A stretch of DNA of 64,000 nucleotides, from contig JCKJ01000001.1 of NCBI GenBank assembly GCA_000525025.1, positions 1,550,001 through 1,614,000 on the forward strand, given 5' to 3'. Of the stretch, positions 33,262 through 52,137 are shown piece after piece. Position 1 is the stretch's first letter. Each line of letters begins with the position of its first letter. The notes below the pieces were generated by a model. That model was not told the origin of the DNA. It made no database searches and saw nothing but the letters and a program-made list of their open reading frames with translations. This DNA is from Methylophilaceae bacterium 11 (GTDB lineage Bacteria > Pseudomonadota > Gammaproteobacteria > Burkholderiales > Methylophilaceae). The position numbers were made by a program, and so were the translations under genes.

Positions 33262-34782
33262 ATGAGTTTGGATATTTTAAAAGGCTTGGGTGTAACCATT
33301 CCTTACAAAAGCAAATACGATAATTTCATTGGGGGCAAATGGGTTGCACCTACTAAAGGTGAGTATTTTGATGTCATTTCACCGATTACCGGCAAAACTT
33401 ACACCAAAGCTGCACGCTCAAGTGCAGAGGATGTTGAGTTAGCATTGGATGCTGCGCATGCAGCTGCCGAGAAATGGGGTAAGACTTCAACTACGGAACG
33501 TGCCAATATTCTATTGAAGATTGCAGACCGCATTGAAGCCAACTTAGCCCTCATTGCTACGGCTGATACCATTGATAACGGCAAGCCGATTCGTGAAACC
33601 ATGAATGCGGATATCCCACTGACGGTAGACCATTTCCGCTATTTTGCCGGTGCGATTCGTGCGCAGGAAGGCGGCATCAGTGAGATTGACCATGATACTG
33701 TGGCCTATCATTACCATGAGCCACTAGGCGTTGTGGGTCAGATTATCCCTTGGAACTTCCCAATTTTGATGGCTGCTTGGAAACTAGCGCCAGCATTGGC
33801 TGCCGGTAACTGTGTGGTATTAAAACCTGCCGAATTCACACCGATTTCCATTCTCATTATGATGGAAACCATTGCCGATTTACTGCCACCTGGCGTAATC
33901 AATATCGTGAATGGCTATGGCCGTGAAGTGGGTGCACCACTTGCCAACAGCAAACGTATTGCTAAAATTGGCTTCACTGGCTCGACCGCTACTGGCCGCG
34001 CCATTGCAACGGCAGCCGCCAATAACTTGATCCCAGCTACATTAGAATTAGGCGGGAAATCTCCTAATATCTTCTTTGCAGACATCATGGATGAAGATGA
34101 TGCGTTCTTTGATAAAGCAATTGAAGGCTTAGTGTTGTTTGCATTTAACCAAGGTGAAGTCTGCACTTGCCCATCACGTGCCATTATTCAAGAATCTATC
34201 TACGACAAGTTTATCGCCCGTGTATTAGAGCGCGTAAAAGCCATTAAACAAGGCAACCCGCTTGATGCCAACACCATGCTAGGCGCACAAGCTTCGCAAG
34301 ACCAGTTAAACAAAATCATGAATTATATTGATATTGGTAAACAAGAAGGTGCTGAAGTGTTGATTGGTGGCAACCGCAATGTGCTGAGTGGTGATTTTGC
34401 AGAAGGCTACTATGTGCAACCAACCTTGCTTAAAGGTCATAACAAAATGCGCGTATTCCAAGAAGAGATTTTTGGCCCAGTGCTTGCAGTGACGACTTTT
34501 AAAGACGAAGCGGATGCATTGGCGATTGCGAATGACACTATCTTTGGCTTAGGTGCAGGTGTTTGGAGCCGTAATGGTACTACCGCTTACCGCATGGGTC
34601 GTGGCATTAAAGCAGGTCGTGTGTGGACAAACTGTTACCACGCCTACCCTGCCCATGCTGCATTTGGTGGTTATAAAGAATCTGGTATCGGCCGTGAAAA
34701 CCACAAAATGATGCTAGACCATTACCAACAAACCAAAAACTTGCTGGTCAGCTATAACCCTAACAAATTAGGTTTCTTCTAA
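33262..34782 (+). CDS. NAD-dependent aldehyde dehydrogenase
   Basis: Oxidises an aldehyde to the acid; 506 residues, close in style to ExaC/AcoD-type acetaldehyde dehydrogenases. Motifs are [23 protein letters not shown], the Rossmann [12 protein letters not shown], the general base Glu in [10 protein letters not shown], and the catalytic Cys in [12 protein letters not shown] (second Cys two residues on). The C-terminal [11 protein letters not shown] is standard. The GGAG ribosome site lies 8 bases before the ATG. In a methylotroph it could remove formaldehyde or longer aldehydes; the substrate is not readable. A terminator separates it from the DUF779 gene. Confidence 0.95.
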
Positions 34783-34856: not shown

Positions 34857-34893
34857 CTTTAAAATAAATAGGTGATTGGTTTGGAGATATGAA

Positions 34894-35283
34894 ATGATGG
34901 CTGAACGTCTATCCGCAACCCTGCCCGCTGTCGCATTAATCGACAAACTGGTGGCGGAGCATGGTGAAATTATTTTTTTACAATCCGGCGGATGCTGTGA
35001 GGGTAGCGGCCCATTATGCATGCCAAAAAATGAGTTTCACCCGAGCCCATCTGATGTGGTGTTAGGTGTACTGGGTACAGAACAGAAGGCGACTTTTTAT
35101 ATGGGGGATAGCCACTTTACGTTTGCAGAAAATATGCACACTATACTAGATGCACAACCCGGCTCCAGCGGCTCGTTTTCATTGGACTGTGGCAGTGGGT
35201 TTGCCTTTATTACGCAAGGCCGATTGTACTCTGATGAAGAACTAGCCAGCCTCCCACCTGTGGTGAGAGTTGGCTACCGATAA
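34894..35283 (+). CDS. DUF779 family protein
   Basis: The 129-residue product has the DUF779 signature: IIFLQSGGCCEGSGPLCMP with a vicinal Cys pair and a third Cys, and LDCGSGFAFITQG. Genes of this family are frequently adjacent to aldehyde dehydrogenases, as here (gap 111 bases). The Cys-rich motif suggests a metal or thiol role, but none is established. The start with GGAG eight bases upstream is preferred to a TTG six codons earlier. It converges with cheZ. Confidence 0.85.
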   Translation: MMAERLSATLPAVALIDKLVAEHGEIIFLQSGGCCEGSGPLCMPKNEFHPSPSDVVLGVLGTEQKATFYMGDSHFTFAENMHTILDAQPGSSGSFSLDCGSGFAFITQGRLYSDEELASLPPVVRVGYR

Positions 35284-35291
35284 GAATTGCG

Positions 35292-35954
35292 TTAGAAACC
35301 GAGGCTATCTAGCAGATCATCCACTTGCTCTTGGCTCGCCACTACATCTACTGTATTGACTGGGTCAATTTGCGGGCCATTCATCAATGAATCATCTTCT
35401 TTTTTGTGCACAGGCGGAGAGAAGTCCACTAACACTTGCACCAATTGTTTTTCCAGATCTTGCGCCAGCGAAGTGATTTTCTTAATCACCTGGCCAGTCA
35501 AATCTTGGAAATCTTGCGCCATCATAATGTCCATCAATAAGGCTTTGGTGGCTGCCGTGTTTTTCTCGGTTAACGCTAAAAACGCTAAAGTCTCTTGGGC
35601 TACACCGTTATATTCTGACTTTAATGACGGCTTATCCAAAATAGCCTGCCATTGCTGCGTCAATTTAGCAGCCTCTGTCGATAGCTCCGTTTGCAGCGGT
35701 GTGGCTTCATCGGTTGCATTCAATACACGCTCTGCAGCCTGTTCCGTCATGCGGGCAACGTAGTTTAGACGATCACGCGCATCCGGGATTTCCGATGCTA
35801 CTTGCTCGAGCATCTTATCAAAACCTAAACCACTCAAATTATCATGCAGCGCACGGGTAACATGCCCGATACGGTTGAGCATTTCATCATGAGGTGGAAT
35901 ATGTGGCATGATCTCTGGCTGCGGCGTGTTCTTATTGATTGTTTGTGCCTTCAT
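35292..35954 (-). CDS. cheZ: CheZ, CheY-P phosphatase
   Basis: Dephosphorylates CheY-P to end the motor signal. The 220-residue product is helical. The catalytic Gln-containing motif MMAQDFQDLTGQVIKKI is present. The last residues, EQVDDLLDSLGF, match the C-terminal CheY-binding helix of E. coli CheZ almost exactly. The ATG is 3 bases from the cheY stop. Confidence 0.95.
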   Translation of the reverse strand: MKAQTINKNTPQPEIMPHIPPHDEMLNRIGHVTRALHDNLSGLGFDKMLEQVASEIPDARDRLNYVARMTEQAAERVLNATDEATPLQTELSTEAAKLTQQWQAILDKPSLKSEYNGVAQETLAFLALTEKNTAATKALLMDIMMAQDFQDLTGQVIKKITSLAQDLEKQLVQVLVDFSPPVHKKEDDSLMNGPQIDPVNTVDVVASQEQVDDLLDSLGF

Positions 35955-35956
35955 GA

Positions 35957-36355
35957 TTAAGCTCCAGCCTTCTCAAGCTTCTCAAATATTTTAGATAGCT
36001 TTTCATCCAGTGTTGCTGCGGTAAATGGTTTTACCACATAGCCGTTGGCACCTGCACCTGCGGCTGCAATAATGTTCTCTTTCTTGGCTTCTGCCGTCAC
36101 CATCAATACCGGCAAATGCTTGAGCTCTGGGTCAGCGCGAATACTCTGCAACATGGTCAATCCATCCATGTTCGGCATATTCCAATCTGACACCACAAAA
36201 TCAAAATCACCGCCTTTTAATTTACTCAGTCCAATGGCGCCATCTTCAGCTTCCTCTACATTGCTGTAGCCAAGTTCCTTGAGTAAATTGCGGACGATTC
36301 TACGCATGGTAGAAAAATCATCGACCACTAAAAATTTCATATTGGGATTTGCCAT
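35957..36355 (-). CDS. cheY: CheY, chemotaxis response regulator
   Basis: Carries the phosphosignal to the flagellar switch. The 132-residue receiver has the acidic pocket [14 protein letters not shown], the phospho-Asp in [14 protein letters not shown], Thr in [12 protein letters not shown], and Lys in [16 protein letters not shown]. It matches E. coli CheY closely, including the [12 protein letters not shown]-like C-terminus. It pairs with cheZ and is preceded by a FliA-type promoter. It is one of two cheY genes in the window. Confidence 0.95.
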
Positions 36356-36532: not shown

Positions 36533-37603
36533 TTACACACGTAAAGCACGTGTGCCATGTTCGGTTAAATAATCTAATACTAATTTTGGCAGCGCATTTA
36601 AGTGTGCAACTTCATCCACGCCACCATGCGCAACTGCCTCTCTCGGCATGCCGTACACCACGCAACTCTCTTCGTTCTGTGCATAGTTAAACGCGCCGGC
36701 TTCTTTCATTCTTGCCATACCTGCTGCGCCATCTTTACCCATCCCGGTCAAAATCACACCAATCGCATTTTTACCGGCGTAGCTTGCAGCAGAATCAAAC
36801 AGCACATCTACAGATGGCTTGTGTCGATTCACCGGCTCGGCATCACTTAGTTTGGTGATGTAGTTTGCACCACTTCTGGCCAGCAATAAGTGCTTATCAC
36901 CAGGTGCAATATAGGCATGGCCTGGTAATACGCGTTCACCATCTACCGCTTCTGTCACCGAAATTTTGCAAAGCGAATCTAAACGATTGGCAAAGGATTT
37001 GGTGAACCCAGCTGGCATGTGTTGTGTAATCAAAATGCCAGGACAGTCCGATGGCATTTGCAATAAGAACGATTTAATCGCTTCTGTACCACCTGTAGAA
37101 GCGCCAATAATGATGAGTTTTTCACTACTAATCAGCGGGTTTTTCAGCATACCTAGCGTTTCACCTTGCGCGGCTGGCTTGGCAGAACGCTGTAAGCAAG
37201 CTACTTTGGCTTTTGCTGCTGTGCGGATCTTATCGGCAATAATCTCGGAATACTCACGCATGCCTTCGCTAATTGCAGTTTTCGGCTTGGTCACAAAATC
37301 TGTGGCACCTAGTTCTAATGCGCGCAGTGTGATTTCCGAGCCACGCTCTGTTAGCGTGGACACCATCAGTACTGGCATCGGTCTTAATCGCATCAATTTT
37401 TCTAAAAAATCTAGCCCGTCCATTTTCGGCATCTCGACATCCAATGTCAGTACATCTGGATTCAGTTGCTTAATCATCTCGCGCGCAATCAACGGATCTG
37501 GCGCGGCACCGACCACTTCCAGATCTTTCTGTTGGTTGATCATCTCCGTTAGCAAGCTACGGATGAGCGCAGAATCATCAATCACTAAGACTTTGGTTTT
37601 CAT
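36533..37603 (-). CDS. cheB: CheB, chemoreceptor methylesterase/deamidase
   Basis: Removes methyl groups from chemoreceptors during adaptation. The ATG at 37603 gives 356 residues. The N-terminal receiver domain ([12 protein letters not shown], phospho-Asp in [13 protein letters not shown], Lys in FVTKP) is joined by a linker to the esterase domain, with catalytic Ser in [12 protein letters not shown], His in ITQHMPAGF, and Asp in [12 protein letters not shown]. It follows cheD by 69 bases. Confidence 0.95.
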
Positions 37604-37672
37604 ACAATACTCTCTAGTTATTTCATCTAGTTGCAAGCAACACGGTACTGGCTGCAATACACATGAAATGGG

Positions 37673-38281
37673 TTAGAACAAGTCCACTTCACCGCCTACA
37701 TCATTGGTTTTGAGTTTGCTCGAGTAAGCTTCTTCACGTTTGACCAAGGTGTAGTTGTTCAATTGTTTCAGTTTTTTCACTAATACTTTTCCGGTTTTCG
37801 GGAAAAAGTACACTTTTCTCGGGTAGATATCCAACAAGTCTTCACCTGTAACGCGGATACCTTCATCTCTTAAATACTGTTTCACAAACGCGGCGTTACG
37901 GTCGCCTACGTTATTGGTAGTAAAGCTTCTGAGCACATTGCCACCGCCAAAGATCTTGGCTTCCAGATTCTCTCTGCGCGCGCCATTACGTAGGAGCTGG
38001 TTAATCAGCACCTCCATCGCATAGGTACCATAACGCATGGACTCTGATACTGGACTGTCCCGGTCTGCTTTCGCACTATCCGGCAACATAAAGTGATTCA
38101 TCCCGCCAATGCCACTCACAGTATCGCGAATACAAGCCGATACGCATGACCCTAACACGGTAACAATCAACATACTTTTGTCAGTATAGTAATATTCACC
38201 TGGTGAAATCTTGGCCGCATCGATATCAAACGTGCGGTCGTAATACAAGGTAGTAGAAACCTCTTCGTGCATCACGGTCAT
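37673..38281 (-). CDS. cheD: CheD, chemoreceptor glutamine deamidase
   Basis: Converts receptor Gln to Glu and interacts with CheC/CheY in other bacteria. The 202-residue product has the active-site Cys in VLGSCVSACIRD, His in GGMNHFMLPDS, and the GAKIFGGGNV-like EAKIFGGGNVLRSF. The C-terminal tail GGEVDLF recalls the tail of the CheZ-like protein at 54999 (GDIDLF). Its start overlaps the cheR stop by 4 bases. Confidence 0.94.
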   Translation of the reverse strand: MTVMHEEVSTTLYYDRTFDIDAAKISPGEYYYTDKSMLIVTVLGSCVSACIRDTVSGIGGMNHFMLPDSAKADRDSPVSESMRYGTYAMEVLINQLLRNGARRENLEAKIFGGGNVLRSFTTNNVGDRNAAFVKQYLRDEGIRVTGEDLLDIYPRKVYFFPKTGKVLVKKLKQLNNYTLVKREEAYSSKLKTNDVGGEVDLF

Positions 38282-39159
38282 ACCATTGCCTCATGTTTTA
38301 ACGCGGCAATACGGCTAGTGCTATTGGTATTTTTAAGTTGATACACTGTTTTACCTAGCAGTTGCAGCGCATTAGAGACGTATAAAAAGTTCTCTGAATG
38401 GCCAGCAAATAATAAGGTTTGTGGTTTCATGAGCGGCACAAAGCGGCTCAAAATTTTGGTTTGTGTAGGCTTATCAAAATAGATCATGACATTCCTACAA
38501 AAAATAGCGTCGAATGGCTCTTTGATTGGCCATTGTTCATCCAGCAGGTTCAGCTGGCTAAACGTAATTAAACTTCTTAATTCATTGCGCACACGCACAC
38601 TGCCTTCGTTTTGCCCTGTGCCTTTTTGAAAAAATTCTCTGCGTCTTTTCTCAGAAAGTTTGCTCACGCGCTCATAGGGATACACGCCTTTAGAGGCTGT
38701 GGCCAGCACATTGGTATCAATATCTGTCGCATAAATTTCTACAGGTGGTTTGAGTGTGCCAAACGCTTCGCATGCTGTCATGGCAATGGTATACGGCTCC
38801 TCACCTGTGGACGCTGCTGAGCACCAAATACGGATGGGCTTTTGCAGTTTAACTAAGTGATCAGCCAAAATTGGAAAATGATGTTCTTCTCTAAAAAAAG
38901 AAGTCAGATTAGTAGTCAACGCATTGGTAAATGCTTCCCACTCATCTGCATTTTGTTGCTGTTCTAACTCATCTAAGTATTGCTTAAAAGAATCGTGGCC
39001 TACGGCACGCAGTCTGCGGCCAATACGGCTATACACCATGTCTGTTTTTGCATCTGAGAGTGAAATGCCAGCGTGCTGGTAAATGAGTTTACGCACTCTG
39101 GAAAAGTCTTGCGCAGTAAATTCAAACTCCCGTTCATCTTGGTATTTTTCTTTTAACAT
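38278..39159 (-). CDS. cheR: CheR, chemoreceptor methyltransferase
   Basis: SAM-dependent methylation of receptor glutamates. The 293-residue product has an N-terminal four-helix domain (FTAQDFSRVRKLIYQHAGISLS) and the catalytic domain (RIWCSAASTGEEPYTIAM, IYATDIDTNVLATA, PFDAIFCRNVMIYFD). It should tether to the DWEEF-type pentapeptides seen on three neighbouring receptors. It is followed by cheD with overlapping codons and preceded by the fae homologue (126-base gap). Confidence 0.95.
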   Translation of the reverse strand: MLKEKYQDEREFEFTAQDFSRVRKLIYQHAGISLSDAKTDMVYSRIGRRLRAVGHDSFKQYLDELEQQQNADEWEAFTNALTTNLTSFFREEHHFPILADHLVKLQKPIRIWCSAASTGEEPYTIAMTACEAFGTLKPPVEIYATDIDTNVLATASKGVYPYERVSKLSEKRRREFFQKGTGQNEGSVRVRNELRSLITFSQLNLLDEQWPIKEPFDAIFCRNVMIYFDKPTQTKILSRFVPLMKPQTLLFAGHSENFLYVSNALQLLGKTVYQLKNTNSTSRIAALKHEAMV

Positions 39160-39284
39160 TGCATACTTTCATATCAAAACTATCTGTTCAACATCACCCC
39201 AGATGTTGAATGCCAATCCATCACAGTGCGCAATCAAAGGCTAAAAAGCCTAAGATTGCTTACTGATTATTGATGTCACCATCA

Positions 39285-39971
39285 TTAGTCGTGCGCGACA
39301 AGACCTTTACGTTGTTTCATTTGATCTAAGGCTTTGTCAGCTGCATCTACCACTGTTGGTTTTGGTGTCAATGGATTACGTGATTTCATTTGCTCAATCG
39401 CTAATGCATAAGCATGATCTTCTACGCGGCGATTTTTTGTTGCTGCAAATGGATGCAATGCTTCTTTGTAATGTTTCAACACTTCAGCAGCTTTTGGCTC
39501 ACGTGCAATTGCACTCTTGATTGCCATTTTTGTTGCGCGGTAGTTCCAATCTTGAATACGGTCATCCATATCCGCTTTATGATCGATAAACACACCTACG
39601 CAGATATATACGTCATCCGCTTCTTCAATTGGGATAGTGCCATCTTCAACACACTCCATTACTGCCATGGCTACACCGCGTTGTGCTGGGCCAAACATTT
39701 GCACAGCTTGACGACCATCTTTAATCGTCACTTTGTTAAACATCACAGTGTTTGGTTTTACCATCATGTTTGGCGCTGCAATCGCCAATAAACCGTTTAC
39801 TCCTTGTTTTTGATCGGTGAGCGTACGACAAAATGCGTCTTCTGCAGCGCTACCGCGTGGGCCCATGACTAAGTCAATGTGCGCCACATTTTTTAAATCT
39901 AGGCCTGAACCATCTGGACGTTCTTCGATGACTAAACCTTCACCAATTAATACACGATCAATTACAGCCAT
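39285..39971 (-). CDS. fae: Formaldehyde-activating enzyme (Fae) homologue with C-terminal extension
   Basis: Fae couples formaldehyde to tetrahydromethanopterin. The ATG at 39971 (AGGAGA site 8 bases before) gives 228 residues. Fae signatures are [26 protein letters not shown] with the catalytic-type His, [39 protein letters not shown] and [11 protein letters not shown]. Compared with the roughly 170-residue classical Fae there are about 55 extra C-terminal residues: a Lys/Arg-rich helix [26 protein letters not shown] and [12 protein letters not shown]. It sits between a chemoreceptor gene and cheR, an unusual place, so it may be a fae paralogue used in sensing or adaptation rather than bulk metabolism. 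Confidence 0.9.
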
Positions 39972-40096
39972 TTTATTTCTCCTAATATCAACATTCAAAA
40001 ATTCGCAACCCATACCCCTGTCGCACTTGTTTTACTTCTACTACAGTTACTATTTACTACTACTTCTAGGCTAAACAAATTCTAGAAAAAGACTGC

Positions 40097-42637
40097 TTAA
40101 CCATTGCTAACCTTCAAATACGCGGTTTCATAACGTTGTTGCTGACCACTTTCAAGACTAAATACACTCACTGTTTGTGTTAGCTCATCTGCTTGCTCCA
40201 TCAATGACTCAGCAGCAGCAGCGGCTTCTTCAACCAGGGCAGTATTTTGTTGTGTCACATCATCCATCTTCATGATGGCATCATTGACTTGGGCAATGCC
40301 CACGCTTTGTTCACCAGAAGCGGCAGCGATCTCAGCAATGATGTCAGACACGCGGCGCACCGATGCCACAATCTCTTGCATGGTTTCACCCGCCATCTCT
40401 ACTTGTTTGGTGCCTTCCGTGGTTTTATTCACGGAATCTGTAATCAGTTCTTTAATTTCTTTTGCAGCGGTAGATGAGCGTTGTGCCAAGTTGCGCACTT
40501 CAGCAGCTACCACAGCAAAACCGCGACCTTGTTCACCGGCACGCGCTGCTTCAACCGCAGCGTTTAATGCAAGAATATTGGTTTGGAAAGCAATGCCGTC
40601 AATCACACTGATAATGTCTTCAATTTTGCGTGCGCTCTCGTTAATCGCGCTCATGGTATCCACCACTTGGCCTACAGCCTCACCACCTTTGACTGCAACA
40701 CTAGAGGATGCCAATGCCAGTTGATTGGCTTGTTTGGCGTTCTCTGCATTGAGTTTTACCGTGCCGGCTAACTGATCCATGCTGGATGCAGTTTTTTCCA
40801 AGCTGCTGGCTTGCTCTTCAGTACGGCGGCTTAAATCAGAGTTGCCTTGTGCAATCTCTTTTGCTGCCGTGTTAATCGCATCTGCAGCAGATTTCACCGT
40901 GATGATCGGGCCCACAATCATTTCCAGCGTTTCATTCACGCCTTCTACAATTTTGCGGAAATCGCCTTGGTGACGCGTCACATCAGCACGTACGCTAATG
41001 CGGCCTTCTTTTGCGGCATCTGCCAGCATTTGTGCATCGGCATTCAGTGCTTTCAAATTCACACGCACTTGCTCAATCGCCTCGTTCACAAATGATTTTT
41101 TACTTGGGAATTTTTCCAATGGTGCATCAAAATTACCCTCACCAAATTGTTTCACGCAAGCCAATGCTTTTTCTGTCAAATCGATCTGACCAGCGACAAT
41201 CGTGTTCACTGCACCGGCAATTTCAGAGAAACCACCTTTAAACATATGTGCATGCAATGACATATCGATATTGCCTTTGGCATGCTCTTCAGTTACCCAC
41301 TTCACAGACTCTAAGATGCCTTTGAGCTTGCCTTGCAGGCGATCTAGGTTTTTATTGATCTCGGCTTTTTTGCCAGGATATTGCTGAATTTCTACAGCAA
41401 AGTTACCGTCACCAAGCATTTTCATCACTTGGATCATTTCATCTTTTTCTTGCACGTGTGCATGCACCATGCTGTTCACGCTATTCACCATTTCGGCATA
41501 GGCACCAGCATATTTCACTGCATCAATATAGACATCCACATCGCCCGCATCATGCTGTTGAGACATCTCTTGCATATCGGCAATAAAGGTTTTGATGTTG
41601 GTACGTAATAGTTCTACACCTTCATTAATAAAGGCGCGTTTGCCTGGGAATTTCTCAAGTGGCGCATCAAAATTACCTTTTGAGAACTCAGCAATACATG
41701 CAGTCACTTTACGCATCACTTCGGCCTGATTAGCCGCCATGTTGTTCACGTTTTCTGCCATGGTTCTATAGCTGCCTTGGAATTTAGCGGTATTGATGAC
41801 TTCATCGATATTGCCTGCCTTGTTTTCTGCAGACATATGGCTTTGTGCTTCAATCACGCTCTTCAAGGTGAGTTGCATTTGCTGCATAGACGCCATCAAA
41901 CTCGCGCTATCACCTGCTTTTATAGAGATTGGGCTATTCAAATCCCCTTGTGCAATATGGTTAGCAATGTTCACTACATCTGTCGGTTCGCCACCTAACT
42001 GTTGTAATAAACTGCGGGTGATGTAGTAACCCAAACCCAATATTGCCAATACCACTAACACAGCAATCGTTAACGTAAATGTTGCAGAAGCACTCTTTAC
42101 CGCAGCCGCTTCTACAGCACTCGCTTTTGCCAACTCGACGTTGTATGCAATATGGTTAGAAATATGTTCATTGGCTTTTTCTGCCGGCGCACGAATCGCA
42201 ATGTATAACTCACGTGCCACGTCTTTTTTATTCAAATTAGATGCATTTAGGATAGGCTTCATACGCTCAAAGTAGAGCTCGATACTGGCACGATCTTCTG
42301 CAAGTAGAGCCTTATCTTTCTCGTCCACAACCAACGCTTCATAGCCTTTAAGTTTTTCGGTTAACTCTGTTTCCAGCGCGCCGATTGCATTTTCTACCTC
42401 ATGCATCTTTTCTGGTTGCGTCAGCATGGTGTGATTGGACACACGCACACGTAACACATTGAATTTATATCGAATATCTGCCATTTTCAAAATGCTTGGT
42501 AAGCTATTTTGATTCACAGAATTCGTCTTATCAAATACCGCATGCAGTTGATATTGACCTACCGTAGCCAAGCCAATCAACCCCAACATACTGATCAGCA
42601 CTAGCAACATCATTTTTTTCGCAACAGTTAGCTTCAT
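40097..42637 (-). CDS. Methyl-accepting chemotaxis protein with poly-HAMP array, copy 1
   Basis: Chemoreceptor, 846 residues. An N-terminal membrane segment ([19 protein letters not shown]), a periplasmic 4-helix-bundle-type domain (about 35-180), and a second membrane segment (about 188-208) lead to a HAMP domain and then at least five repeats of the form 'G-[ND][11 protein letters not shown][RK]-A-F-I-N-E'. The signalling domain contains the invariant hairpin tip [33 protein letters not shown]. It lacks the C-terminal DWEEF-type pentapeptide found on the next three receptors, ending [11 protein letters not shown]. Confidence 0.93.
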
Positions 42638-42675: not shown

Positions 42676-45381
42676 TTAAAACTCTGCCCAATCATCATCC
42701 GTACCCGTTTTCGCGTAGCTCTGTGCTGCAACTGGTTTGGCTTGTACCTGATCCGATTTATGTGTTTGGGCCGGTTTGCGCACTTGGGTCGGTTTGCTAT
42801 AGGCCACACTGGCTACTTTTGCTGATGATTGATGATATGAAGCAGAGCTGCCTTCAATACTAAATACGCTCACGGTATTCATTAGCTCGTCTGCTTGCTC
42901 CATCAAGGATTCAGCTGCCGCTGCTGCTTGTTCAACCAATGCAGTGTTTTGCTGTGTGGTGTCATCCATACGAATAATGGCGTCATTGACTTGTGAAATA
43001 CCCACGCTTTGCTCTTGTGAAGCCGCTGATATCTCGGCAATGATGTCTGCCACATGTTTTACCGAAGTCACAATCTCTTGCATGGTGGCACCGGCGTTTT
43101 CTACTTGCTTAGTACCTTCTGTGGTTTTGCTGACAGAATCGGTGATCAGCTCTTTAATTTCTTTGGCTGCACTGGCAGAACGTTGTGCTAGGCTACGTAC
43201 CTCGCCTGCTACTACGGCAAAACCACGGCCCTGTTCACCTGCACGAGCTGCTTCTACCGCAGCGTTTAGCGCCAAGATATTAGTTTGGAAAGCAATACCG
43301 TCAATCACGCTGATAATGTCTTCAATTTTGCGTGCGCTCTCATTAATCGCGCTCATGGTATACACCACTTCACCCACGGCTTGACCGCCCTTCACTGCCA
43401 CATCGGAGGCAGTAATGGCTAATTGGTTGGCTTGTTTTGCGTTGTCGGCATTCTGTTTCACAGTGCTGGACAACTCATCCATGCTGGACGCTGTTTTTTC
43501 TAGATTGGCGGCTTGCTCTTCGGTACGGCGACTTAAATCGGAGTTACCTTGCGCGATTTCTTTAGCAGCCGTATTGATGGTTTCTGCAGCCACTTTTACG
43601 GTGGTGATTGGGGTCACAATCATGTCTAGGGTTTCATTCATACCCTCTACAATTTTGCGATAATCACCAAGATGGCGTGAGGCATCAGCACGCACAGACA
43701 CACGACCATCCCGAGCAGCATCAGCCAACAGCTGCGCATCTTCGTTCAGATTTTTTAGGTTGCTACGCACTTGCTCAATGGTTTCGTTAATAAATGCTTT
43801 TTTGCCAGGGAACTGCTCTAATGGCGCACTAAAATTACCCTCACCAAAGGCTTTGACTACCTGCATCGATTTTTGATTCATATCCAGCAAGCCAGCCATC
43901 ATTTTGTTGACGGACTTAGCGAGCGTACTGAAATCACCTTTAAACATGTCGTCACGTAAGGTCATGTCTATGCTGCCTTTTTCGTGCTCGCCACTCACCC
44001 AATTCACAGACTCAATCAGGCCTTTAAGATTGCCACCAATTTTCTTGATGTTCTTGTTAATGTAGGCTTTTTCACCTGGGAATTCTTTAATATTGGCTGA
44101 GAAATCGCCGTTGCCAAACTGGCTGACACACTCCATGACCGCTTTATTCTCGTCGATATACTCATTCACCATGCTATTGACGCCAATCGCCAACAAGCGA
44201 TAGTCACCGGCAAACTTGTCTGTATCTATCACAAAGTTGGTGTTACCTTTGCTGTGCTCTTCGGCCATCAAACGCATATCAGAAATAAGTGCGTGGATAT
44301 TGCCACGTAGCCCTTCTACACCCTCATTGACCAAGGCCAATTTGCCTGGGAATTTCTCTAACGGCACGTCAAAGTCGCCTTTAGCAAAGCTATTGACGCA
44401 GCTTGTCGTTTTGGTCATGACCGCTACGTGATTGGCCACCATACGATTGATGCCAATGGCCATATCGCGGTACGCACCTTTAAATTTGCTTACATCGATA
44501 TTCGCGTCCACATTGCCTTGCTGATGTTCGGCATCCATGCGTGCCATTTCACGGTCAATCTGGATAAGCGTTTCTGAGGCAAGTGCCAGTGCGCCAATGA
44601 CATTGGCACCTTGATTGGAATGTGATGTATTGGCACTAAAATCACCTTCGGCAATATGTTGGGCCGCTGCCAATGCTTCTGAAGCCTCACCGCCAAGCTG
44701 ACGGATGACATGCGTCACTACAGCAAATAAACCGGCTAATGCAATGCTCAATGCAATGAATGCCAATACTAAGGATTGTGTGCGTGCAGATTGCACTTGT
44801 GCAGGCACTTCAGTTTCAATCACTTTGTAAGCCTTGTCATTCAATACGACTAATTCATCAATCACCGCACGGTGTTGTTGATAGGCATTTTTAAGGTTAT
44901 TCAGCGCAGCATCAATACGTTTGGCATCGCCAGAACGCACGGCTGGAATCAATTGATTATCACGCACACGAATGAATGTCTCACCTGTGGGGATAAGTGA
45001 TTCCGTCAGGATTTTTTTCAGCTGTGGTTGTGTCTCTACCCAGAACGCAGCGCGTTTGGTAAAGGCCTCTGACAATTGCTCGCTTTTATCAATTAAAGGC
45101 TGTAAAGGCGCATTTTTAATGGCTGCCATCTCAAGCGCAACCTGCCAAGACTCCAGCAAATAAGCGGGTGGCGGCAGAATATCTGCGGCCAAATTTTTAT
45201 GTGCCTGAATGTTTTGATAGACCTCACCATTGACCAATACTTTATCAAAAGCACGGTCTGCCATGACGCCAGCAAACGCAAACCCTAATACCATGACGCC
45301 AATCAATAACAACAGTTGCGTCTTTAATTTCAAACTGCGTAATTGGCTCATCACAATATTTTCCTTTTTCATTGTTGCCAT
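42676..45381 (-). CDS. Methyl-accepting chemotaxis protein with poly-HAMP array, copy 2
   Basis: Chemoreceptor, 901 residues. It has a membrane segment ([18 protein letters not shown]), a periplasmic helical domain of about 170 residues unlike that of copy 1, a second membrane segment ([23 protein letters not shown]), and an array of poly-HAMP repeats ([45 protein letters not shown], and so on). The hairpin tip is the same as in copy 1. The C-terminal tail has a proline/Lys/Gln linker and ends GTDDDWAEF, a pentapeptide of the NWETF class for CheR/CheB docking. Start ATG with AAGGA seven bases before. Confidence 0.93.
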
Positions 45382-45497: not shown

Positions 45498-48152
45498 TTA
45501 AAATTCTTCCCAATCACCATCATCCGTGCCTGTCTTCATCGATACTTTGGTAGGCGCAGGTTGACTAAGTGGTTTTGATTGGACAGCTGGTTTTGATTGC
45601 ATAACCGGTTTAGAGGCGCTACGCATTGGACTGTGTGTTGCACGACGATCCGTACCTACAGTATCCAACTTGAATACGCTCACCACTTCCGACAGCTGAT
45701 TGGCTTGTTCCAGCAATGATTCCGCTGCAGCTGCAGCCTCTTCGACTAATGCCGCATTTTGCTGCGTCACTTCATCCATGCTGGTCACAGCTTGATTCAC
45801 CTGGTCAATGCCTGTAGTTTGTTCTGCAGAAGCCGCTGCAATCTCACTGATAATGTCGGCAACACGCTGTACAGAAACCACGACTTCTTCCATCGTAGTC
45901 CCCGCGTTTTCCACCAACTTGGTGCCTTCGGCTGTTTTATTCACAGAATCGGTAATCAGTTCTTTGATCTCTTTGGCCGCACTGGCTGAACGTTGTGCCA
46001 AGTTACGCACCTCACCCGCCACCACTGCAAAGCCACGGCCTTGCTCACCAGCACGCGCCGCTTCTACCGCCGCGTTTAATGCCAAGATATTGGTTTGGAA
46101 GGCAATGCCGTCAATCACGCTGATAATGTCTTCAATTTTATGGGCGCTCTCGTTAATGCCTGTCATGGTATTCACCACTTCGGCCACCACTTGACCACCT
46201 TTGACAGCCACACCAGAGGCGGTAATCGCCAGCTGATTTGCTTGTTTTGCGTTGTCCGCATTTTGTTTAACGGTGCCAGCCAACTCTTCCATGCTGGCTG
46301 CTGTTTCTTCTAAGCTAGAGGCTTGTTGCTCTGTGCGCGCAGACAAATCACTATTGCCGGTGGATATTTCGCCAGCGGCAGTGGCAATTGTTTCTACGGC
46401 CGCTTTAACGGCGGTAATGGGCGCCACAATCATATCCAGCGTTTGATTCACGCCTTCTACAATTTGACGGAAATTACCTTGGTGTTGCGTGGTGTCTGCG
46501 CGTTGGGTCACACGGCCTTCGGTAGCCGCTTCCGCCAGCATATTCGCATCGGTGACCAAGCGATTGATCGCATCGATACAAGTGTTTAAGTTAGTCTTAA
46601 TGACATTAAAGTCGCCACTGTAATCATCGGTAATCTTCGCTGGGATATTGCCTTTAGAGATGTTCTCTACATACTCTGCAGCCATGTTCAGCGGGTTAAT
46701 CACAGAGTCCAATGTAGCATTGACGCCTTCCACAATCTTACGGAAATCTCCCTGATGTTGATTTGCGTCTGCACGCGTCGCCAGCTTGCCTTCTACTGCG
46801 GCTTGCGCCAAGCGTGAAGCATCGGCAACCAAGGCATTGACTGCATCAATACAGGTATTGAGGTTATGTTTAATGGTATTAAAGTCACCACTGTAATCGT
46901 CTGTAATTTTCGCGGGGATATTGCCCTTAGAAATGCTATCCACATAGCTAGCAGCAACGTTAAGCGGGTTAATCACAGCGTCTAATGTGTCGTTAACACC
47001 TTGTACAATCTTGTAGAAATCACCTTGGTGTTTACTTGCATCGGCACGGGTAGATAAGCGCCCCTCTACGGCTGCATGCGCCAAAATATCGGCATCCGCT
47101 ACAAGCGCTTGGATATTGGCACGTACCTGCTCAATGGCTTCATTCACAAACGCTTTTTTACCTGGGAACTGTTCCAGCTCAGCGGTCAGATTACCTTCAC
47201 CAAATGCTTTCACTACTTGAATGGCTTTTTGGTTCATCTCAATATGACCCGCCACCATTTTATTGATGCCTTTGGCCATCTCTGAATAGCCGCCTTTAAA
47301 GCGTGTAGCATCTACGGTACAGTCAATATCGCCCGCATCATGTTGCTGGCTGACATACTGCAAAGATTGCACCAAGCCGTCTAAGGTTTTTTGTAAGCTG
47401 CGGATAGAGTAAGCAACACTGGCTTTGTCATGCTCAGCCAACTCAATTTTTTGCGTTAAATGGCCTTCTACAAAGTTTTTGGCAATCACAGACAGCGCAG
47501 CTGGCTCCATGCCAAGTTGCTGCATTAAATTACGTTTGATGTAGAGACCAATGCACACCACTGCTGCCAAGATGGATCCGGCAATCACGAGCAACAGCAA
47601 TACCGCGCCAGCCTTCATTTCTGCGGCTTGTTTGGCGCTAGCTTGGCCTAACTCAAAGTTGAACTCACGGTGCTCTTTGATTGCATTTTGAACTTGCTCT
47701 ACCTTGATGGATGACGCCAACAAACTATCACGCGCATTATTTTTCTTATTCGCCAAAGACAGTGTGAGTACTTCACCGCCCATTTGGTCGTACTCGGCCA
47801 ACATGGCAAAATCTTTATCGAGATAAGCTTTATCTTTCTCGTTACTTACATTGTTTTTTTCGTAACCTTTAAGCGTAGATGTCAGCAAGTTATGTGTTTC
47901 AGCCACTTGCGTTTCAATCACTTGCATTTTGGCGCTATCGGTATTTAGCATATGCTGCCAAATCAAGCTGTTTAAGCGCTCAAATTGTGCGAGTGCACGA
48001 TCCAACACTTCTACGCTCGGGGCTGAATTTTGATTTGCATAATTGGTGGTTTCGTAAATGCGGTTCATTTGAATATAGCTGACACCCGCCAGAGAAAACA
48101 ACCCGACCGCTGCTAACAAAATTAGCGCATACATTCTATTGGCAACACTCAT
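45498..48152 (-). CDS. Methyl-accepting chemotaxis protein with poly-HAMP array, copy 3
   Basis: Chemoreceptor, 884 residues from the ATG at 48152 (GGAG site; a TTG frame starts at 48164). The order is a membrane segment ([20 protein letters not shown]), a periplasmic 4-helix domain, a membrane segment ([22 protein letters not shown]), a HAMP, then a distinct set of tandem repeats: two nearly identical copies of a module ending [23 protein letters not shown] / [23 protein letters not shown]. The C-terminal tail is Pro/Lys/Ser-rich and ends [10 protein letters not shown]. It is the first gene of a run reading toward fae and cheR. Confidence 0.93.
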
Positions 48153-48226
48153 TTTTTTCTCCAAACGATATTCATTTCTATATTTCCCAGTTGATTAGGT
48201 GTGTTATTAGTTGTCTTACTTTACTC

Positions 48227-48993: not shown

Positions 48994-51588
48994 TTAAAAC
49001 TCTTCCCAATCTCCGTCATCTGTACCGGTTTTCATCGATACTTTTGCTGGGGCTGGTCTTGCAACAGGTCTTGCGGTTGCCACCGGTTTTGGTGCGCTGC
49101 GCATTGGACTGCTGTGTGAACGACGCTCATGTTGAGCAGCACCTTGCAGCTTAAAGCTACTAACCACATCCATTAAGCTAACGGCTTGGTCAACGAGTGA
49201 TTCAGCTGCTGCTGCTGCTTCTTCCACCAAGGCCGCATTTTGCTGTGTCACTTCGTCCATGCTGGTAATCGCGTTATTGACTTGATCAATACCAGCACTT
49301 TGCTCACTTGAAGCCGCTGAAATCTCACCCATGATGTCCGTTACACGTTGTACTGATGACACAATCTCAGTCATGGTAGTCCCTGCGTTTTCCACTAAGC
49401 GCGTGCCTTCTTGCACTTTGCTCACAGAGTCTGAAATCAGTTCTTTAATCTCTTTAGCGGCACTGGCAGAACGTTGTGCCAAGTTACGCACTTCACCTGC
49501 GACTACGGCAAAACCACGGCCTTGTTCACCCGCACGCGCTGCTTCTACAGCAGCGTTCAACGCCAAGATATTCGTTTGGAAGGCGATGCCGTCGATAACA
49601 CTGATGATGTCTTCAATTTTGCGTGCACTAGTATTAATCTCACTCATGGTATGCACCACGTTGCCGACTACCTCTCCACCTTTAACTGCCACGCCTGATG
49701 CCGCAGCAGCCAACTGATTGGCTTGTTTTGCGTTCTCAGCATTTTGTTTGACGGTGGATGAGAGTTGCTCCATGCTGGAAGCAGTTTCTTCGAGTGAAGA
49801 CGCTTGCTGTTCAGTACGTTGAGACAGGTCATTGTTGCCAGTTGAGATTTCGCCAGCCGCTGTGTTAATGGTTTCACCTGCCTCACGAACAGACATTAGC
49901 ACTTCAGTCATCTTGTCCATCAGCGCATTCACACCATCGCATAAACTCGCAATTGCACCTGTTTTTCCTTCTAATGGTACACGGCTGGTTAAGTCACCTA
50001 CTTTAGCTGACTCAATCACTTGTTGTGTTTCTTGCACTGCAGCGTCTAAAGCTTCGCTCGCTTTGTGCTGCTCTGTGATATCGGTGGCATATTTGACTAC
50101 TTTAAATGGTTTACCGCTTGCATCAAATATTGGGTTGTAAGATGCTTGCAACCAAATCTCTTTACCCCCTTTACCAATACGTTTGTATTGACCTGCATCT
50201 GCTTCACCACTGCCTAATTTATCCCAAAATGCTTTGTATTCTGGGCTAGCTTTGTATGCCGCATCGATAAACATACTGTGATGATTGCCAACAATTTCTT
50301 GCTGGCTGTAACCAGTAGCTGACGCAAAATTATCATTCACGGCTGTAATATTTCCTTTTAAGTCAAATTCGATGATGCCCATGACTTTGCCAATGGCAGA
50401 CAACTGACCGCTGAAGTCCGCTGCTTTTTGTTGAATTTTAGTAATGTCAGTGGCGTACTTCACCACTTTGAATGCTTTGCCATCTAAGCCGAAAATCGGG
50501 TTGTAAGACGCTTGCAACCAAACTTCCGTGCCATTTTTACCAATGCGTTTGTAAACGCCTTCGTCCGCTTCACCTCTGCCCAACCTATCCCAAAAGTCTT
50601 TGTATTCCTTACTAGACTTATAGGCAGCATCTACAAACATACTGTGGTGGTTGCCCACAATTTCTTTTTCTGAATAGCCTGTGACATTGATGAAGTTATC
50701 ATTGACTGCAAGAATATTGCCTTTCAGATCAAACTCAATCACGCCTTGAATTTTACTAATCGCTTTAAGTTGACCTAGGTAATTGATTGCTTCTTTTTTT
50801 TCTTCGGTAATACAAGTAGAAATTACTCTAACTTTATGCACGTTGCCTGATTGATCTAAAATCGGCGCAAACGAACCTGAGAACCAAAACTCACGACCAT
50901 CTTTTGCAACTCTTCTAATTTGCGCTCTTTGTGGAATGCCTTTTTTCACATTCTCCCAGATGGCTTTGTATGATTCACTGTTGTAATCATCTTTGGTCAG
51001 CAATATGCTTGCGCTTTTACCAATCAGTTCGTCAGCTGTATATCCCAGCGTTTTCAACACAGTGTCATTCACGCTTAGAATATTGCCTTCTAAACTAAGC
51101 TCGTAACTATTAAACACCATATTGAAAGCAGTATGCGTCGCCTCTAAATCAAGCTGCGCTGTTTTTTCTGCGGTCACATCAGTAAAAAAGCTATATACCT
51201 TGGACAATTTGTTTGTTTTGTCTAAAGCGGGGGCAAAATATCCTTGCATCCATACATCTTCGCCAGTTTTCCCTCTAAAGCAAAAAGTGTCAGATTGTGA
51301 TTTTCCTTCAGCCAAACCAGACCACAGTGTTTTTTGCTTTTGCTTGTTCGCTTCTGTATCAGTCATTAAGAACTGATGCGGCTGGCTCACTAACTCTTTT
51401 TCTGTGTAGCCAAGCGCTTTTTGTGCATTTGCATTTGCGCTAAGAATAGTGCCATTGGCATCAAACTCAATCACACATCTGGCTTTATCGATTTCCGTCT
51501 TCAGTGCTTTAAATTCAGTCACTTCTTCATTTAATTGCTGTACGCCAGAGGTTTGATTGGCTAATTTATTTACAATGCTGGATAACAT
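48994..51588 (-). CDS. Soluble chemoreceptor with four tandem PAS domains
   Basis: Methyl-accepting chemotaxis protein, 864 residues, with no membrane segments. It has four PAS/PAC units (about residues 28-140, 150-270, 275-395, 396-515), each with the GY-ELVG or GYSEKEIVG-type pocket. The third and fourth are near-duplicates ([18 protein letters not shown] vs [27 protein letters not shown] vs [11 protein letters not shown]). A single HAMP-less linker leads to a signalling domain with the standard tip, and the C-terminal tail ends [13 protein letters not shown] receptors of this layout usually sense cytoplasmic redox or energy state through FAD or haem; the cofactor cannot be read here. Confidence 0.93.
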
Positions 51589-51618: not shown

Positions 51619-52125
51619 TTAATGGATAGAAGCGTCAATGAGTTCCATCTCTTGGCTACTCATGAGCTTTTCAATGTCTACCAAAATCAGCATGTGTTGC
51701 TCGACCGTGGCCAACCCTACAATGTATTTAGTGTCTATGCTGGTCACTAAAGTCGGCACTTCACGTAGTTGGTCTTCTTTTAATGCCATCACATCAGATA
51801 CACCATCGACCACGATGCCCACAATACGGCCACTCAAGTTAAGAATAATGACGACTGTAAACTCGTCATATTCCACCTTGCCTAAATTAAATTTGATGCG
51901 TAAATCCACAATCGGCACGATCTTGCCGCGCAAATTGACTACCCCTTTAATAAAGTTTGGGGTATTCGCAATTTGCGTCACTGCGTCGTAACCGCGGATT
52001 TCTTGTACTTTGAGAATTTCCAGTCCGTATTGCTCTGTGCCTAGCACAAAAGTTAAATACTCACCTGCGGCGCTCTTAATGCCTGCGCTCGTGTTGGTGG
52101 AGACCGCTTCAGTATTCGTGTTCAT
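51619..52125 (-). CDS. cheW: CheW, receptor-kinase coupling protein
   Basis: Couples receptors to CheA. The 168-residue protein (start ATG at 52125, GGAG upstream; a GTG three codons earlier is possible) has the two SH3-like barrels: [50 protein letters not shown], and [19 protein letters not shown]. It lies 12 bases past cheA. Confidence 0.95.
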
Positions 52126-52137
52126 TGCATTCACTCC

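Follow-up and report, generated by a model that had tools for sequence, protein, structure and literature searches.

In the 64,000-nucleotide stretch of DNA analysed here (the window; bases 1550001-1614000 of the single 2.79-Mb contig of its genome, G000), a gene for the formaldehyde-activating enzyme (Fae) lies within a chemotaxis operon, directly upstream of cheR, and its product ends in a tail of about 50 residues that carries a duplicated short motif. We consider it likely that this gene encodes the main catalytic Fae, housed in the che operon, and that its tail acts as a docking peptide. The presence of fae in a che cluster and the idea of a sensing role are both already in print. According to the accessible parts of PMC3728764, the Methylotenera mobilis fae mmol_1253 belongs to a sensing/chemotaxis cluster, and it is suggested there, citing Kalyuzhnaya 2008, that Fae may sense, signal or regulate; the accessible text of PMC4109929 places one fae of several Methylophilaceae in a conserved chemotaxis cluster, outside the H4MPT cluster, and likewise raises the sensing idea for fae homologues. 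The C-terminal tail with its twofold short motif is apparently new: among the papers that could be searched, no paper on a C-terminal extension of Fae was found, and no test of the proposed sensing role either.

The sequence-only reading of this DNA had described a Fae homologue at 39285-39971 with a good ribosome site and an intact catalytic-type His region, and each of these points stands. The ATG ends at 39971 and the stop lies at 39285, which places the gene on the minus strand, and AGGAG is found 7 bases 5′ of the ATG. The Pfam match covers residues 9-175 (205.7 bits, cut-off 27), and TIGR03126, the NCBIfam equivalog domain for Fae, scores 196.8 bits against a curated cut-off of 118.05; Fae is the sole Pfam domain in the protein, with no chemotaxis domain beside it. 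The active-site His of Fae is His22 in M. extorquens. In the window protein, the VAHIDL-block histidine H31 is aligned with the His of the Fae structure 1y5y and is invariant in all 42 aligned sequences, the window copy included, and the Fae core shows dN/dS values of 0.02-0.05 in three subsets (10, 45, and 6 pairs). The nearest Fae relatives are MAG copies at 97-98% identity, one of them titled Methylophilus, followed by a 90% copy in a MAG titled Methylotenera and by Methylophilus strains at 77-88%; the named relatives suggest that the window genome belongs to Methylophilus.

Transcription of the locus runs in the order cheW, four MCP genes, fae, cheR, cheD, cheB, cheY, and cheZ (Table 1). 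Two of the MCP genes are separated by a small ORF of 81 aa, and a cheA-like ORF, named by eye, lies upstream. All four MCP genes and cheR share the strand of fae, in agreement with the placement between receptor genes and cheR that had been read from the letters.

Table 1. Features of the fae-containing chemotaxis locus, in window positions
Feature	Coordinates	Strand	Basis or detail
fae with C-terminal extension, 228 aa	39285..39971	minus	PF08714 E 5.5e-61; TIGR03126 over cut-off
Tail coding part of fae, aa 179-228	39288..39437	minus	RR..D and two A[IL]..M[K].R copies
fae-cheR spacer, several predicted hairpins	39160..39284	minus	MFE -39.3 kcal/mol, not set against shuffles
cheR, directly downstream of fae	38278..39159	minus	Pfam CheR
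cheD	37673..38281	minus	NCBIfam CheD
cheB	36533..37609	minus	Pfam CheB_methylest and Response_reg
cheY-like response regulator	35957..36355	minus	Pfam Response_reg
cheZ	35292..35954	minus	Pfam CheZ
MCP directly upstream of fae, 4HB sensor, HAMP array	40097..42637	minus	Pfam
MCP ending DDWAEF	42676..45381	minus	Pfam; end read from sequence
MCP ending GDWEEF	45498..48164	minus	Pfam; end read from sequence
PAS-type MCP ending GDWEEF	48994..51588	minus	Pfam; end read from sequence
cheW	51619..52134	minus	Pfam CheW

Several further features of this locus may be recorded. A W-x-x-F end serves as a tether for CheR; three of the four MCPs have one, and the fae-adjacent MCP does not. The fae-cheR spacer folds strongly in the window and in loci L033 and L034 (-39 to -45 kcal/mol), and in 13 Methylophilus loci with a Fae of 235-236 aa the gap is 44-52 bases long and weakly folded. 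The folding may point to attenuation or RNA processing at the junction of a strongly expressed gene with a weakly expressed one; no terminator-like site was found in the spacer, and a promoter scan gave a single promoter-like match, where shuffled sequences averaged 3.4. Upstream of fae, positions 39972-40096 contain a run of AGTAGTAGTAAATAGTAACTGTAGTAGAAG-like repeats, and a similar AGTAGTAGTAAATAGTAACTGTAGTAGAAG-like run lies between fae and cheR in genome G078. Adjoining cheZ on the opposite strand are a gene for an ExaC-type acetaldehyde dehydrogenase (33262-34782) and then a DUF779 gene (34876-35283); an ExaC-type dehydrogenase occurs near the che operon in many relatives too.

The arrangement is widespread in the family. 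A Fae match is present in 109 of 150 family genomes, and 100 stretches were fetched, with two partial Fae matches of at least 70% (G039:C394 and G127:C55) lying outside the fetched set. In 41 of these stretches, each from another genome, fae is directly upstream of cheR, and an MCP match lies upstream of fae in 34 of them (one of the seven misses has 310 bases upstream). With the window genome included, che-linked fae is thus found in 42 of the 150 genomes, comprising 22 of 22 in its own genus, 16 in g7, 2 in g22, 1 in g8, and 1 in g10, which excludes synteny confined to a single strain, a finding that the sequence-only reading had named as one that would make a sensing role unlikely. CheD occurs in 65 of the 150 genomes, namely the 42 che-linked ones, 22 others (at least 60% identity), and one with a distant match. 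The che loci of 20 of these 22 others were fetched as outgroup; two of them (L247 and L251) stop less than 0.3 kb upstream of cheR, leaving 18 informative loci, and in 18 of 18 the slot upstream of cheR is without fae, with an MCP match there in 17. No fae was found in any of the 20 fetched outgroup che stretches; one of the 20 genomes (G022) has no Fae near the canonical type, and the others have fae at another place in the genome. Its neighbours in G062 and G001 are SIS-domain, ATP-grasp, and hydantoinase-like genes, and the G001 copy also has an OMPdecase/HUMPS gene nearby; such surroundings fit the published H4MPT/RuMP neighbourhood. Of the 29 Fae loci fetched outside the family, none has a che match within its flanks of about 1.5 kb or less, and none has the tail; a plasmid search recovered Fae in other taxa and does not enter the argument.

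These distributions bear on a rival explanation in which Fae doubles as a cytosolic sensor of C1 flux or formaldehyde: its loading with formaldehyde or methylene-H4MPT would alter the docking of the tail on receptors, CheW or CheR and make taxis dependent on metabolism. The retention of the slot directly upstream of cheR in 42 of 150 genomes, the 44-52 base spacing in the 13 Methylophilus loci, and the lack of a tail in all 29 Fae loci fetched outside the family speak for it, as do, in the accessible parts of the sources, the proposals in PMC3728764 and PMC4109929 and the roughly 10-fold upregulation of m301_0896 in sediment (PMC3728764). We nevertheless regard this explanation as unlikely, for reasons that emerge from the ancestry and codon usage of the gene.

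Phylogenies were built on the core only (aa 1-172), with the tail excluded. In the first tree, from which L132 was omitted, all 42 che-linked copies fall within one 45-row clade (SH-aLRT 91); for the second, further rows were added, 6 near-duplicates and 18 divergent rows were dropped, and the clade has 48 rows (bootstrap 98, SH-aLRT 92). In this second tree, one locus (L163) was scored as che-linked from the upstream MCP alone, its contig ending there. Because the 42 copies form one clade and the slot is empty in all 18 informative outgroup loci, fae probably entered the che slot once. The comparison with other fae genes by phylogeny and synteny, proposed earlier as a check, therefore yields conserved synteny and a single clade. 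Three tailless copies without a che match nearby (G006, G140, and L172) are sister to the rest of the 48-row clade (98/71); G006 and G140 are without CheD, G140 has other CheR-domain ORFs, and L172 is known from a 10-kb contig; the trio may either have lost the che arrangement or never had it. As a side observation, the fae genes of L036 (G111), L038 (G083), and L052 (G061), which are assigned to other genera, and likewise that of L163, a MAG titled Bacteroidota, group with Methylophilus or Methylotenera copies; mis-binning or transfer is possible in these cases.

One genome shows the locus in decay. In G122 (L077 9810-10800), a C-terminal MCP remnant, 59% identical to mcp1, is left upstream of fae, no CheD is found, and the sole CheR match is part of another cluster nearby; the fae frame itself is open and 81% identical. 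In this one genome, the pattern suggests that fae is kept for something beyond the che operon, and its survival despite the decay favours a metabolic role and counts against the sensor explanation. It fits instead an account in which the location is historical or serves co-expression only and the tail serves metabolism, for example by docking H4MPT-pathway enzymes. We hold this account to be possible, and tentatively so: a single insertion would explain the synteny and the tailless sister copies agree with it, yet the che slot has been retained across several genera, and the distribution of the tail raises a further objection.

Regarding that tail, the sequence-only reading had spoken of about 55 extra residues rich in Lys and Arg. 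The extension is present, but it measures about 50 residues (179-228) and its Lys/Arg richness is weak; with 10 K/R against 7 D/E in 51 residues, its hallmark is the duplicated motif rather than charge. Other close Fae copies stop at HPF(A/Q)A plus a few residues, and the run-on past this usual end is a variant feature of Fae, end position having no part in TIGR03126. In the window protein, RR..D is followed by motif copies at residues 191-198 and 214-221. The RR end is found in 42 of 42 che-linked family copies, as 31 long tails and 11 stubs such as RRATDK, and the RR stub alone is present in 11 of the 16 che-linked g7 copies. Close non-che copies have an aligned RR end in 2 of 53 cases, G122 and G008, the latter with no che match within its 20-kb stretch. 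Four of 13 distant copies (55-63% type) have an LRRRA end that falls out of alignment with RR..D and was scored by hand as 'none' in the count of 64 of 66 sampled non-che copies that are without an aligned RR..D end. Many of these copies presumably coexist with the same pathway enzymes, which weighs against a tail that serves metabolism. The che-linked copy of one named MAG (L160) has no tail, so the tail is no precondition of the che location. In a paired comparison of tail against che linkage, only two independent pairs were available (sign test p 1, too few for power), and since the tail and the che location go back to the same ancestor, neither is evidence for the other, a further point against the sensor explanation.

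Conservation within the tail is pronounced. In the 30 long tails besides that of the window, no change is seen at R181, R182, D185, A191, I192, M195, or R198, Q194 is present in 29, and all 26 tails long enough to include them keep A214, M218, and R221; among the tails of named relatives, the first-motif Met is replaced by Leu in two and Ile by Val in one. The pattern A[ILV]x[QED][ML][KRQ]xR, composed after the alignment had been viewed, occurs twice in 29 of 34 long tails and once in the other five, the two copies lying 22, 23 or 28 residues apart; in 34,000 shuffles, which control for composition only, it appeared once in 26 and twice in none. The tail dN/dS is 0.13-0.23 in the same three subsets, a rough range as tail dS reaches 1.7, and judged by these ratios the tail is under purifying selection. 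An AlphaFold2 model (mean pLDDT 65.7; tail blocks 40-62, parts of the core below 50) places low-confidence helices at 185-198 and 210-225, coinciding with the two motifs. Two tails scanned against Pfam gave no match at E 10, and the window tail, having no Trp, contains no W-x-x-F tether. A tail search of the window genome returned fae itself as sole match and no tail-like partner elsewhere, and the motif pattern gave four hits there besides fae against two with a reversed control (two in longer ORFs, unrelated by eye, and two in short frames). A tail profile recovered fae in 22 of 22 genus genomes along with six weak other matches; three of these (E 0.008-0.03; G139, G066, and G093) fall in an ORF of 1132-1135 aa and were taken as chance, because one that was read by eye resembles a UvrD-type helicase.

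The question of which Fae is the main enzyme can be approached through copy number and codon usage. No other Fae of at least 55% identity is present in 16 of the 22 genus genomes; a second one occurs in the remaining six (G000, G130, G048, where it is partial, G115, G136, and G142). The mch gene, the one H4MPT pathway gene tested, is found in 21 of 22, including the window genome, and the one in which it was missed is 80% complete. The window genome has three Fae-family genes, namely the che-linked fae, a 61% copy with the His kept, and a Fae2-like gene (31%). Codon adaptation was scored against 25 ribosomal and translation genes of the window genome. The che-linked fae reaches 0.762, the Fae2-like gene 0.768, and the 61% copy 0.582; the values for comparison are 0.643-0.824 for eight of the 25 reference genes, 0.535-0.626 for the che genes, and 0.638-0.686 for the MCPs; the fae ORF ranks first among 40 window ORFs of at least 200 aa. 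High expression of the che-linked fae would follow, and between the two His-bearing copies it is predicted to be the main enzyme in the window genome. Copy number, codon usage in the ribosomal range, and retention in G122 thus make it the best main-Fae candidate. The Fae2-like gene (L132:9169-9711; G000 2634719 region) has Met in place of the VAHIDL His, and its codon adaptation suggests high expression despite the missing His.

Of the interpretation in the sequence-only reading, the Fae identity, location, and tail stand; the picture of a spare paralogue devoted to sensing is not supported, given copy number, codons, and G122. A dedicated non-catalytic paralogue, for which location alone would speak, is highly improbable where the gene is the sole Fae of at least 55% in 16 of 22 genus genomes, mch is present in 21 of 22, and the catalytic-type His is kept; it was rejected on copy number, pathway presence, and codon usage. 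Enzyme-like codon usage also agrees with the metabolic account, and it suggests far more Fae than che proteins, which sits poorly with a sensor. In the accessible part of PMC5023235, a single deletion of canonical fae1 in Methyloversatilis universalis FAM5 abolished C1 growth, and fae2 and fae3 deletions gave normal growth. The main-Fae role may not extend to every member of the clade, given that, in the accessible part of PMC3728764, transcription of the che-cluster mmol_1253 in M. mobilis is far below that of the other copy, mmol_2056.

Under the reading that we prefer, a main catalytic Fae with a docking tail, the enzyme would condense formaldehyde with tetrahydromethanopterin. In an ancestor shared by Methylophilus and some of Methylotenera, its gene would probably have moved a single time, out of an H4MPT/RuMP neighbourhood and into the che slot, with an MCP gene on one side and cheR on the other; the tail would have been gained there, RR..D preceding the two helical A-I-x-Q-M-K-x-R motifs, to act as a short docking peptide. 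Solved Fae is oligomeric, and if the window enzyme is oligomeric as well, the motifs would be displayed several times over. As for the partner of the tail, something else or Fae itself is quite conceivable, short of an even chance; the chemotaxis machinery is a tentative candidate, and another C1 enzyme a doubtful one. That the tail is a multivalent docking peptide tying the main Fae physically to the adaptation machinery or to chemoreceptors, with C1 flux read out by the enzyme and steering swimming, seems to us rather improbable. The tail nonetheless offers a handle, as its loss alone would spare the enzyme and part sensing from metabolism. Should it bind chemotaxis proteins, taxis would have an enzyme of central metabolism as its direct sensor; should it not, the old guess from gene order can go.

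Compared with the Fae structure PDB 1y5y/1y60, the window protein keeps the His block, the QMFGPAQ block, and the HPFAA end, and its core aligns to 1y5y over residues 25-178 (E 6.2e-56); unlike this Fae, it adds about 50 C-terminal residues with a duplicated motif, and its gene lies in a chemotaxis operon. The Fae2-like protein of the window genome (label given here), with its Met, is likewise unlike the che-linked Fae. EfgA belongs to a family other than Fae, and the window protein, matching Fae alone in the Pfam scan, differs from it. The likeness to the proposed sensor lies in function, EfgA being described in the accessible part of PMC8153426 as a formaldehyde-binding regulator in methylotrophs. 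Fae2 and Fae3 homologues, so named in the accessible parts of PMC4109929 and PMC5023235, belong to the same Pfam family as the window Fae. MtpA, MtpB, and MtpC, described in the accessible text of PMC10613068 as methylotaxis receptors for methanol taxis, two of them also for formaldehyde, are MCP-type receptors, unlike Fae, and the taxis that they mediate persists without it: the Methylobacterium 22A fae1 fae2 hgd mutant retains both methylotaxis and formtaxis. Coming from a different lineage, this mutant argues by analogy against a general need of Fae for taxis, and hence against the sensor explanation. The closest counterparts are the che-cluster fae genes mmol_1253 and m301_0896, which, as far as the accessible accounts go, lie in the same type of cluster and have had sensing or signalling suggested for them; to those accounts, the tail, the empty outgroup slot, and the codon evidence are added here.
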